DNA from: Phycisphaerales bacterium
GTDB taxonomy: Bacteria; Planctomycetota; Phycisphaerae; Phycisphaerales; UBA5793
Direction of reading: 5' to 3'
Length of the DNA: 64,000 bases
Assembly (NCBI GenBank): GCA_020852515.1
Contig: JADZAS010000016.1
Coordinates: 62,001-126,000, forward strand
Part shown: piece after piece, positions 33,936 through 41,332 of the stretch
How positions within the stretch are numbered: position 1 is the stretch's first letter
Layout: each line of letters starts with the position of its first letter
Notes under the pieces: model-generated
Seen by the model: only the letters and a program-made list of their open reading frames with translations
Told to the model about the DNA's origin: nothing
Database searches by the model: none
Program-made: the position numbers and the translations under genes

Positions 33936-35363
33936 TCACTCGCCTGACTCGATCGCGATCGCGAAGTCCTGACGAACGTATGTGCACGCACCGTCGGGGC
34001 CAAAGCAGATGTTGTAGAGCGCATAGCCGTGGACCGTCGTGCCGTTGGCGCGGTGATTGCCTTCTGCACTCTCGATTGCCTCATTGCGCGTCGCCTCGAA
34101 CTCGATCGTCCGTATCGCGCTATCGCCTGATCCGCCGGCCGTGGTCGGCGGCGCCAGCGTGAGCAGGCGATGCTCCACCGACCAGCCGTCGGGCGGATCG
34201 ATCCAGACCACCGATGGCCCGGCTTCATCATTCCACTTCGCCCCGGCGACTGCAGAGGGAGTGAACAGCACGTGCACGCGCACCGCGCGCTTCGCCCTGC
34301 CCGTATCGGGAACCAACACGGGCTCGATGCCCAACAGGTGCTGCTGGTCGCGATCGATCTTCCCGTCCGGGTCTGGCTCGAGCGCTTCGACCTGGCTCAA
34401 TGCATCTCGGGCGTCCGTGGCGCGCTGCGGCCGGGCGATCTCGGCGCCGGAGAGATCGACCGCAAGGGCCACTGGCTCCTCGCCGCGCGCACGGATGTCG
34501 CGCTGGGCTGATTCGACCCAGTCGTAGAATGGATAGGGCTTGTCGAGTCGCGGGCCGTACTGCTGAATTCGCCGGCGCCAGATGTACTGGTTCGGCTTCA
34601 GCGCCAGTGCGCGCCGCCAATGTTCGACTGATCTGGCAAAGTCGCCCGGCTGCCGCGCCGCCGGATCGTCGAAGCGCCGGCGAAGTGCCACGCCGAGCCG
34701 AAAGTGCGCTCGCGCGTCGTCGGGCACGTCGCCGCACCGCTGCTCGTACGTGTGAATGGCGCGATCGCGATCATCTGCATCACCCAAAAGCAGCAGCCGA
34801 TTCGCCACGTCGAGTTCATCCTGCGCTGCAGGCGCAGGCATTGGACCGGATACCTGGATCGCCGGCTCCGCAACGAACGCAGCCAGCTGCTTCTCATCAG
34901 GACGAATCGCCTTGATCACGCCAGTCTCATCAATGAGCATCGTGATCGGCACGGCACTCACGTCGAGCAGGTTAAGCGAATCGACCAGCACCGGGAAATC
35001 CATCTGCTTCCACTGCATGAACAGCCGGCAACGTTCCGGATGCTGCTCCTGGATCAGCCCGACGGTTCTGATTTGGCCTGCTGTCTCGAGCGGCTTGGTT
35101 CTCTCGTACCACACGGGCACCTGTTGTCGGCAGCCCTGTCACCACGATGCGAAGATGTGCAAGATGACTTTTTCGCCGTGGAAGTCGGCGATCGAGGCGG
35201 GGCTGGAGTCCTTGAGCAACGGCAGGGAGATCAACGGAAACGCTCGACCGACCTCGATGCGAACTTCATCATCGACGTCGAGCGCGGAGTGCGCGGGCAT
35301 CGCCGATGCCGCAAGGAGGAAGGCGCCCAGAACCGCCGCCCGGTTGCTCGGCATTCGGAACAT
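33936..35363 (-). CDS. Selenoprotein: secreted thioredoxin-like (UxxC) - TPR - DsbD-like protein, UGA at codon 75 read as Sec
   Basis: 475 aa when the in-frame TGA at 35139-35141 is read as selenocysteine. The ATG at 35363 has AAGGTGAG eight nt upstream and begins a signal peptide (VLGAFLLAASAMPAHS-A). Residues 35-165 form a TlpA/redoxin fold: FHGEKVILHIFASW-Sec75-QGC78, where other members have W-C-x-x-C, and the cis-Pro strand VSAVPITMLIDETG near 139. Residues 180-240 resemble TPR helices (AIHTYEQRCGDVPDDARAHFRLG). The last 150 residues form a beta-rich domain ending in NICFGPDGACTYVRQDF, like the DsbD N-terminal domain. Coding character continues on both sides of the TGA, and selD, selB, selA and tRNA-Sec lie just upstream on the same strand. 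A periplasmic thiol-disulfide or peroxide-reducing role is inferred. Confidence 0.88.
35112..35138 (-). promoter_or_regulatory. Candidate SECIS of the redoxin selenoprotein
   Basis: The 27 nt after the UGA can form CA-GGGC / GCCC-G-UG with an inner CC/GG pair, with AGGU at +17 to +20 after the UGA. The structure is imperfect and other folds are possible. Confidence 0.4.
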
Positions 35364-38274: not shown

Positions 38275-40251
38275 TCAATCGGCGGGCGGCGCGGCCACCT
38301 GACTGGACTCAATTGTTGCGCCCGCGTTCGCTGCCGGCCCGGCGGTGCGCAGATCGCCGCGCCGGCGTGTCAAGCCCAGGCGATCGAGGTATTCGCAGAT
38401 GGGCAGCGCGTACTTGCGCGTCGTGTCGAGCAGATCGCGTATCTCGGCCACGGTCAGGCCCGCGCCGCCGCCCAGCGATTCGCCGATTCTGTGTCGCAAT
38501 TGCTCATCCCACTTCTGGTGGAGGTACAGCCCGCCGCCAAGGTGCACGAGATGCCGGCGATGAACACATAGCGCGAGCAGCTGCCGCATCTGCTCGCCGG
38601 ACAAGCCGAATTCGCCAGCCAGTTCGGCGGGATCGGGGGGCTGAAAAGCGGTCTTCTCAAAGCGCTGCACCATGCGTTCGCGGGCGGCCTCCTGCGCCGC
38701 GGTCAACCTTCCTGCGTGATCGCGCAGCGCCACGCCCGTCTCGCCGCCGACGATCTTGCCGGATCGGACCAGGCGGGCGAGCAGGCCCGCGAGCAGATCA
38801 CCATCGAGGTAGCGAACGCCCTGCGCGAGCCGCTGGCGGGGCACGGTCGGCTCGATGGGATTCTCCGCATGCAGGCGGCGGAGCGATTCCAGGAGGCGCG
38901 CCTCGATCTCGTTGCACAGATCGACGTGCATCAGCGCAGCACGCCTGGCGCCTGTGGCCAGTTCGATCACGCGCTTTTGCGCGACAAGCTGCTCGACGAG
39001 GCGCTCCGCCAATTGAACCTCAACGTCGAGTTCGCACGCCAGGTCTTCCGCGCTCCATGGCCTGGCGCCGAAGAACCGGATGGCTCCATCCGCGCGCGAA
39101 AGTTCATCCGGCGAAAGCAATGCGCTGGCGCGATCGGCTGCGGCCGCGTCGCGACGGGAGAGCCGATCCGGCGCGCATTGCAGCACGATTCCGCCACCAA
39201 GCGTCACCAGCGGCGACTCGGCGCGGATGATGAGCGGTTGGCGCCCGCGCGCGATGAAAGGCTGAGAGGAGATCAGTTGCACGATGCCTGATTCGCCGGG
39301 CTCGAGGCTCGTTCCCTCGAGCAGGCGCACCCCGGCAAGCACCTCCTGCGTGCCCAGGTGCACGCGAAGGCGAGCGCGATGGCGCACCGGCAGCGGGCTC
39401 TCGGCAAGCACTCGAAGGTGCGCCGTGATGCGGCGTGAGGACCGGAGCAGCCCAGGTGACGCTAGTTCGTGGCCGCGCATGATCTCGCTGTGATGCACGC
39501 CGATGAGATTCATCGCAGCGCGCTGCCCCGCCTGCACTCGCTCGACCGACCGCCCGTGCGACTGCAACCCGCGCAGGCGCACGCGCCGGCCGAGGGGGAG
39601 CCACTCCACCTCATCGCCGGCCGAAATCGCGCCGGACCAGACCGTGCCGGTGACCACGGTGCCCAGCCCGCCGAGGACGAACGAGCGATCCACGGGCAGG
39701 CGGAAGTGGCCAGAGGCGACTGCCTCGAGAATGGTGTGCTCGTTCTCACTCGCCAGTCGGGCGAGGGTCTGCTTGAGTTCGTCAATGCCCGCGCCGGTCG
39801 CCGCCGAAGTCCGCACGATCGGCGCGCCGTCGAGAAAGGTATCGCGCACCAGAGAGCGAGCCTCATCTTCAACGAGATCGAGCCAGTCCGGCTCGACGAG
39901 ATCACATTTGGTCAGCACGATCAGTCCCGCGGGTATCTGCAGAAGTTGCAGAATCGCCAGGTGTTCGCGCGTCTGCGGCATGATCGAGTCATCGGCGGCG
40001 ATGACGAGCATCGCCAGATCCACCCCCGCGGCGCCGGCGAGCATGTTCCTGATGAAGCGCTCGTGCCCGGGCACATCGACGATGCCGAACTGGACATCGC
40101 CGACTTCGAGGTGGGCAAAGCCGATGTCGATCGTGATGCCCCGCTGCTTCTCCTCGGGCAGGCGGTCGGTATCGACACCCGTCAAGGCGGCGACAAGAGC
40201 TGTCTTGCCGTGGTCGATGTGTCCGGCGGTGCCGAGGATGAGTTGCCGCAT
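38275..40251 (-). CDS. selB: Selenocysteine-specific elongation factor SelB
   Basis: 658 aa from the ATG at 40251. The N-terminal GTPase is EF-Tu-like: [14 protein letters not shown] (G1), [13 protein letters not shown] (G2), DVPGHERFI (G3), VLTKCDLV (G4). Domain II and III segments follow ([43 protein letters not shown]). The C-terminal 270 residues carry the winged-helix repeats that bind the SECIS hairpin, ending in [28 protein letters not shown]. It brings Sec-tRNA(Sec) to the ribosome at UGA. The gene ends 18 bp before selA and begins 19 bp after selD, consistent with one operon. Confidence 0.97.
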
Positions 40252-40270: not shown

Positions 40271-41332
40271 TCACGGCGTGATACGCAGCCGCTTGCCGCT
40301 CGGAGGCAGCACCCGCCCCACCACCGTTGCCATGCCCGCGCCGCCGGCCCGGCAGCGCTGCACGAACTCGCCCGCCGCTCCCGGCGGCACGGCGACGAGC
40401 AGCCCGCCCGACGTCTGCGGGTCGTACATGAACGGCAGCAGGTCGCATTCAGCGGCGCCGGCGGCTGTCTCGGTGCGCTCGATCGTGAACTCGCGATTGC
40501 CCGCGACGGCGCGAGTGAAGTTTGCCGCCGTGGCCAGTTCAACGGCGCCGGGAAGCAGCGGCAGGCGCTGCAGGCTCAATTCGATGGTGACGTTGCTCGC
40601 CTCGGCCATCTCGCATGCGTGCCCCGCAAGGCCGTAGCCGGTGATGTCCGTCGCGGCGCTGGCGCCGAGGTCGACGGCCGCCTGCGATGCCGTCGCGTTG
40701 AGCGCCACCATGCTGGCGCATGCCGCCTGCAGCGTTTCAGGCGGGCAGCGATCGCCCCGATTGGCGGTGGTGATGAATCCGACACCGAGTCCCTTGGTGA
40801 GTACGAGCAGGTCGCCGGCTCGGGCTCGCTCATTGGTCAGCAGTCGCTTGGGATCCACAGTGCCCGTCACCGCCAGGCCATACTTGATCTCGCTGTCTCG
40901 CACGGAATGGCCGCCGACGATCACCGCACCGGCGGCGATGACGCGCTCGGCGCCGCCGCGCAGGATTTCGTTGAGGATCGAGAGATCGAGGTCTTTGTCC
41001 GGAAAGCCGACGATGTTCAGCGCTGTGCGCGGCTGGGCTCCCATCGCGTAGACGTCGCTGAGCGCGTTGGCGGCGGCGATCTGGCCGTAGACGAACGGAT
41101 CATTCACTACCGGCGGGAAGAAATCGGTCGTCTGCACGATGGCCAAATCGTCGGCGAGGCGATACACACCCGCGTCGCTGAAATGTTCAGCGCCGATGAG
41201 CAGGTTTGGATCCTGGAACCGGGGTAATCCTTGCACAACCTGTGCAACGGCCTGAGCCGAGAGTTTGCCGGCTCAACCCGCGCAGTTGGCGTAGTCGAGC
41301 AATCGCTTCATGCGCCCGCTGGGATGATCCAT
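40271..41332 (-). CDS. selD: Selenide, water dikinase, Sec-containing form (UGA at codon 20)
   Basis: 353 aa from the ATG at 41332, which has AAGGGAGG four nt upstream. The frame contains one TGA at 41273-41275 (codon 20), in YANCAG-Sec-AGKLSAQ. This aligns with the catalytic Cys17-x-x-Lys20 of E. coli SelD, where Sec or Cys occurs in different organisms; Lys is present as residue 23. The rest is typical: [78 protein letters not shown] and [15 protein letters not shown]. It makes selenophosphate from selenide and ATP. Without Sec readthrough the product would be a 19-residue peptide, so SelD needs its own pathway to be made. Confidence 0.95.
41231..41247 (-). promoter_or_regulatory. SECIS hairpin of selD
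   Basis: TTGCACA / TGTGCAA form a perfect 7-bp stem around GGT, inside the selD coding region. The GGU loop starts about 33 nt after the UGA, and the upper stem-loop resembles the E. coli fdhF SECIS. Confidence 0.65.

Follow-up and report, generated by a model that had tools for sequence, protein, structure and literature searches.

Cys counterparts exist for nearly all selenoproteins, and families that occur only with selenocysteine (Sec) are rare. Glycine reductase protein A has been mentioned as an earlier single Sec-only case (PMC12013277). A recent review of prokaryotic selenoproteins lists over 110 families, many of which carry a UxxC motif in a thioredoxin fold (2026 review, PMC13188914). 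Table 1 of that review contains a 'Redoxin family protein' assigned to PF08534, with a UxxC motif and the accession HEU0032618.1, which is traced there to PMC2398784 and PMC5029168. The WAxxUGC family is also listed, as NF041054 or 'UGC-containing TlpA disulfide reductase family' (PMC13188914).

The locus discussed here was found in the window, the 64,000-nucleotide stretch of DNA from a Phycisphaerales bacterium that was analysed. From sequence comparison, we consider it highly probable that it encodes a selenoprotein combining a ResA-like UxxC domain, a TPR region and a DsbD_N-like domain. The gene and its central positions are as follows.

33939-35363, minus strand: selenoprotein coding frame, 475 codons including Sec, with the stop TGA at 33936-33938
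35286-35363, minus strand: probable signal peptide MFRMPSNRAAVLGAFLLAASAMPAHS, recognised from the sequence, with helix 9-20 in the model
35139-35141, minus strand: in-frame TGA, very probably the selenocysteine codon, U119 (P0002 numbering), first position of UxxC; TGA in 84/84 homologues and in further genomes
35130-35132, minus strand: C122, resolving Cys of UxxC, invariant (84/84)

The sequence-only reading had placed a single TGA inside a 475-codon frame, at the first Cys position of a thioredoxin CxxC. This is confirmed on the minus strand, where the gene starts with an ATG at 35363 and has its sole in-frame TGA at 35141-35139. The codon stands in the context ILHIFASW-U-QGC, and the cis-Pro loop VPITMLID comes after it. 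Both 5' and 3' of the TGA the base composition at the codon positions resembles that of coding sequence, and the Pfam AhpC-TSA and Redoxin matches span the TGA (P0002 82-196).

Homologues were searched with six peptide probes, all lying outside the UGA site, and the best 80 of 130 loci, drawn from many phyla as judged from record titles, were combined with three further genomes and the window into a set of 84 sequences. The aligned column is TGA in every one of them, S117, W118, G121, C122 and R123 are likewise invariant, and all 84 sequences carry the UxxC motif. The TGA is not there by chance, because this column is universal and because the frame is homologous across it, in 84/84, to one protein family and not to two unrelated ones. 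If the TGA were a true stop, or had arisen by sequencing error or an inactivating mutation, the locus would be two pieces or a pseudogene; this would agree with the normal role of TGA as a terminator, which it also plays at the end of many genes of this family. The conservation of the TGA already refutes this explanation, since the same codon recurs in every homologue across phyla within one continuous family alignment; RNA-level constraint 3' of the TGA, described below, also argues against it, and its probability is negligible.

In the window's phylum, a profile match was obtained in 44 of 392 genomes and the best matches covering the site have TGA; the matches in two of these 44 genomes, G151 and G206, belong to the sister UGC group. 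A survey of 396 genomes from the phylum to which Acidobacteria bacterium Mor1 belongs gave 21 with a match; wherever a match spans the site the codon is TGA, G616 being the exception. The match in G704, from this Acidobacteriota survey, is a UGC-group protein. Two matches without a stop were considered as Cys or other non-Sec forms of the family and rejected: the one from G616 is a conventional protein of ResA type with a CGPC motif, and the one from G169, an additional match in the 392-genome survey, is a degenerate UGC-group relative in which Asp replaces the redox residues. For Cys homologues at the site the picture is mixed. The ResA/TlpA relatives do carry Cys there, but no full-length Cys form was found among the best 80 of 130 loci and the 392- and 396-genome surveys of the two phyla, which are samples and not exhaustive.

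The genes of Sec synthesis and insertion lie on the same strand as the selenoprotein gene and upstream of it.

40271-41332, minus strand: selD, with its own in-frame TGA (41273-41275, GUAGK motif); TIGR00476, 354 bits
38275-40542, minus strand: selB, open frame, with SelB homology starting near 40239; TIGR00475, 363 bits
36814-38262, minus strand: selA; TIGR00474, 531 bits
36646-36742, minus strand: tRNA-Sec, anticodon UCA; ARAGORN, and Rfam RF01852 at 68.2 bits
35532-36611, minus strand: BNR/Ycf48-like putative lipoprotein gene, between tRNA-Sec and the selenoprotein gene, kept only in the closest relative, L009

Because SelD, with its GUAGK motif, is itself a selenoprotein, Sec-encoding genes stand at both ends of the cluster. 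A strong hairpin was observed around the UGA of selD (z -2.6). The BNR/Ycf48-like gene was considered as a functional partner and, given its conservation in a single close relative, is probably not part of the function. The proximity of selB recurs: it lies a few kb or less from the family gene in five of the six order-level genomes that have the gene, the window included. The sel genes are also found near the family gene in L009, L010, L036, L040, L050 and L079 (tRNA-Sec in 4/6). No conserved neighbour genes besides the sel genes were found and no neighbour hints at a substrate. Elsewhere in the window's own genome, two formate dehydrogenase alpha-like genes (G000:C5:26548-28626 and C9:79556-81634) have no in-frame stop, so FdhA, the commonest selenoprotein, apparently lacks Sec in this genome.

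The distribution of the gene follows that of SelB. Among 151 relatives, SelB scored over the cut-off in 15, and the full-length gene is present in 6 of these 15 and in none of the 136 others. Of the 232 SelB-positive genomes in the window's phylum 43 have the gene, and of the 160 others one does. Fisher tests give p 3e-7 for the 151 relatives and 1e-9 for the phylum; they make no adjustment for common descent, and the two UGC-group genomes are included in the counts. The single exception, G332, has the gene with no SelB over the cut-off in a genome that is 88% complete. Three genomes of the window's genus (G002, G003 and G004) have SelB over the cut-off and lack the full-length gene; other selenoproteins therefore presumably maintain the Sec trait there. 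This distribution also bears on the residue inserted. Readthrough at UGA by other tRNAs occurs in bacteria, and the codon might be read as another residue, Trp or one inserted by near-cognate readthrough, instead of as Sec. We regard this as extremely improbable, given that the UGA takes the place of the catalytic Cys, that the Sec machinery is adjacent, that the gene is almost wholly confined to SelB-positive genomes and that TGA serves as a stop elsewhere, including at the end of the selenoprotein gene itself.

A candidate insertion signal follows the UGA codon.

35105-35121, minus strand: SECIS-like hairpin, +20 to +36 from the UGA, proposed from codon constraint and covariation; the family stem has 6 bp and the loop 5 nt, and the window copy has 5 bp including one G-U

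The hairpin has the sequence CGTGCC-loop-GGCACG. Its stem contains the codon of V126, which is GTG in 79 of the best 80 of 130 loci, with a codon entropy of 0.10 bit, whereas seven further columns of conserved Val lie at 1.35-1.86 bits; His codons within the stem are similarly restricted. In a set of 107 distinct sequences, standard pairs fill 96.0% of the pair cells, against 92.3 +/- 0.3 in shuffles, and 22 cells show a double change, against a shuffle mean of 3.8 and a maximum of 10 (1000 shuffles; relatedness uncorrected). One stem pair occurs as GC, GU, AU, UA and CG, and controls with a slid position gave much lower scores. An initial count, limited to 80 sequences, had given a weaker covariation signal. 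For the 48 nt of the window copy the minimum-energy fold is a different one, and RNAalifold likewise did not select this hairpin. A subclade with the motif WU[RV]GC (L060, L063, L065, L069, L070, L071, L081, L087 and L088) carries, in the 48 nt after the UGA, a different 7-bp hairpin at a shifted position, CCAGRCC-GTGCC-GGYCTGG with the loop GTGCC, which is possibly a SECIS switch. The GGUCU loop of some family members recalls the SECIS loop of E. coli fdhF. The UGA is very probably a Sec codon, because it occupies the active-site position and adjoins the Sec machinery, and because every relative found, across several bacterial phyla, has UGA there and never Cys. Together with the restriction to SelB-positive genomes and the covarying hairpin, this supports the selenoprotein proposed by the sequence-only reading.

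Three further regions make up the protein.

34908-35252, minus strand: ResA/CcmG-type thioredoxin-fold domain; PF00578/PF08534 over the gathering score, Foldseek top matches ResA/DsbE
34578-34802, minus strand: TPR region; TPR models match 25/26 members, and CTPR structures match
33939-34382, minus strand: C-terminal beta-sandwich, DsbD_N-like, with a conserved Cys pair; AF2 model and hhalign against DsbD_N
34005-34007, minus strand: C497 of the C-terminal domain, invariant (84/84), aligned with the first DsbD_N Cys
33984-33986, minus strand: C504 of the C-terminal domain, 81/84, aligned with the second DsbD_N Cys

The whole protein was modelled by AlphaFold2 with a pLDDT of 86.7. A signal-peptide-like N-terminal stretch, here and in most relatives, agrees with the earlier prediction that the protein is secreted. 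The redoxin and TPR domains also proposed are both supported, the former by the Pfam match and the ResA-like structures, the latter by the TPR models. The first domain shows the W-[CU]-x-x-C motif and the cis-Pro of the ResA/TlpA/CcmG type in a thioredoxin fold, and its PF08534 score is 31.9 bits against a gathering score of 26.6. The best Pfam match is AhpC-TSA and Sec would favour peroxide chemistry, two points that would suit an enzyme acting mainly as a peroxiredoxin-like peroxidase and not as a disulfide reductase. Such a role appears unlikely to us, since the Sec stands in a W-U-x-x-C motif of the thioredoxin type, the peroxidatic T-x-x-C/U motif is absent and the nearest structures are those of ResA, DsbE and CcmG.

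The DsbD-like character of the C-terminal domain, also suggested beforehand, is supported by profile-profile comparison with DsbD_N and is not apparent from Pfam alone. At E 0.01 the Pfam model DsbD_N (PF11412) was absent from all 26 full-length members scanned, and it gave no match to the window protein; 3 of 50 isolated C-terminal domains matched, with a best E of 0.026 and scores below the gathering threshold of 25 bits. Compared by hhalign with five DsbD_N domains from the window's own genome and its relatives, the domain aligned collinearly over 120 columns with a probability of 92.5% and with both Cys in register. The score was 36.0, whereas 250 column shuffles averaged 12.4 +/- 2.7 and reached 21.6 at most. 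With the cysteines masked, a score of 26.2 still exceeded all 250. The C-terminal 148 residues modelled alone form a beta-sandwich (pLDDT 90), and structure comparison retrieved nDsbD (1vrs_A) with Z 7.2 amid many Ig-like folds. Assignment to nDsbD by fold search alone was set aside as not decisive, since many Ig-like folds score alike. The domain might instead be an Ig-like binding module whose Cys pair forms a structural disulfide and plays no part in electron input. Along with the level scores of Ig-like folds, weak NPCBM_assoc matches in some members and a Cys spacing exceeding that of the aligned DsbD_N domains speak for such a module; the collinear DsbD_N profile with both Cys aligned, above 250/250 column shuffles even when masked, speaks against it, and we hold it to be the less probable assignment, with a real though minor chance.

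Returning to the DsbD_N-like domain, its fusion to the usual partner fold suggests a built-in, assayable reduction pathway. SelB and tRNA-Sec would insert Sec at the UGA at 35141-35139, assisted by the hairpin 20-36 nt 3' of the codon. The product would be exported and act as a thiol-disulfide oxidoreductase of the ResA/CcmG type with a Sec-x-x-Cys active site. Its C-terminal Cys pair may receive electrons from a membrane DsbD system and hand them on, within the same molecule, to the UxxC site. There, envelope proteins bound by the TPR region would have their oxidised thiols reduced. DsbD is also encoded in the window's own genome and is a possible electron source. We give this relay, from DsbD through the C-terminal Cys pair and the UxxC site to a substrate, about an even chance.

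At the level of the family, we tentatively propose, at somewhat below even probability, a Sec-obligate envelope redox family that has no Cys counterpart, possesses its own fused DsbD_N-type input, occurs in Planctomycetota, Acidobacteriota, Gemmatimonadota and Verrucomicrobiota and helps to keep the Sec machinery in these genomes. A widespread Sec-only family in such little-studied phyla would, if this proposal holds, provide a test of what Sec can do beyond the abilities of Cys. Standard annotation often cuts short or overlooks genes of this kind.

The suggestion that the architecture may be new stands for one part of it. The long family bearing the DsbD_N-like domain reaches no curated NCBIfam model, and no description of it was found in the literature on WAxxUGC or on TPR- or redoxin-containing selenoproteins of these phyla; on the other hand, existing lists already contain selenoproteins of the UxxC redoxin kind as well as the WAxxUGC family (PMC13188914; NF041054), which makes the family only partly new. 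The 'Redoxin family protein' HEU0032618.1 shares with it a PF08534 match over the gathering score and the UxxC motif; compared by description only, that entry names no TPR or DsbD_N-like domain, and it may be either this long family or a short redoxin.

The nearest relatives are in the UGC group. In the proteins examined, the NF041054 family (WAxxUGC_long) resembles the window family in being a selenoprotein with a ResA-like domain followed by TPR. The UGC group differs by a WASW-U-GC (UxC) motif in place of WU-x-GC (UxxC) and by an extra N-terminal domain; its proteins stop once the TPR is complete and lack the DsbD_N-like domain. The window protein scores 69 bits against NF041054, whose cut-off is 300, and all 26 scanned members match the model below this threshold. 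In the midpoint-rooted thioredoxin-domain tree, the window family is supported at 98/99 and groups with the UGC group at 99/96, apart from the Cys proteins. In L162, a relative of the UGC group, FASWDNSR stands where the redox motif would be; this paralogue has lost Sec and Cys alike. WASWUGC (UxC) selenoproteins with an N-terminal extension, Trx and TPR were also observed in L163, L164 and L198, possibly a further unmodelled UGC subgroup; NF041054 is the model nearest to them, and L163 and L164 score 165 and 135 bits, likewise below its cut-off.

ResA, StoA, CcmG (DsbE) and TlpA share with the window family the fold, the export (predicted for the window family), the position of WC-x-x-C and the cis-Pro loop, but they are one-domain Cys enzymes, whereas the window family has Sec and adds to the thioredoxin fold both TPR and a second domain of redox type. 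That second domain is collinear in profile with the N-terminal domain of DsbD (PF11412) and has its Cys pair aligned with it; in DsbD the domain is fused to the membrane protein, while here, with a longer Cys spacing, it is attached C-terminally to a soluble protein of thioredoxin fold.
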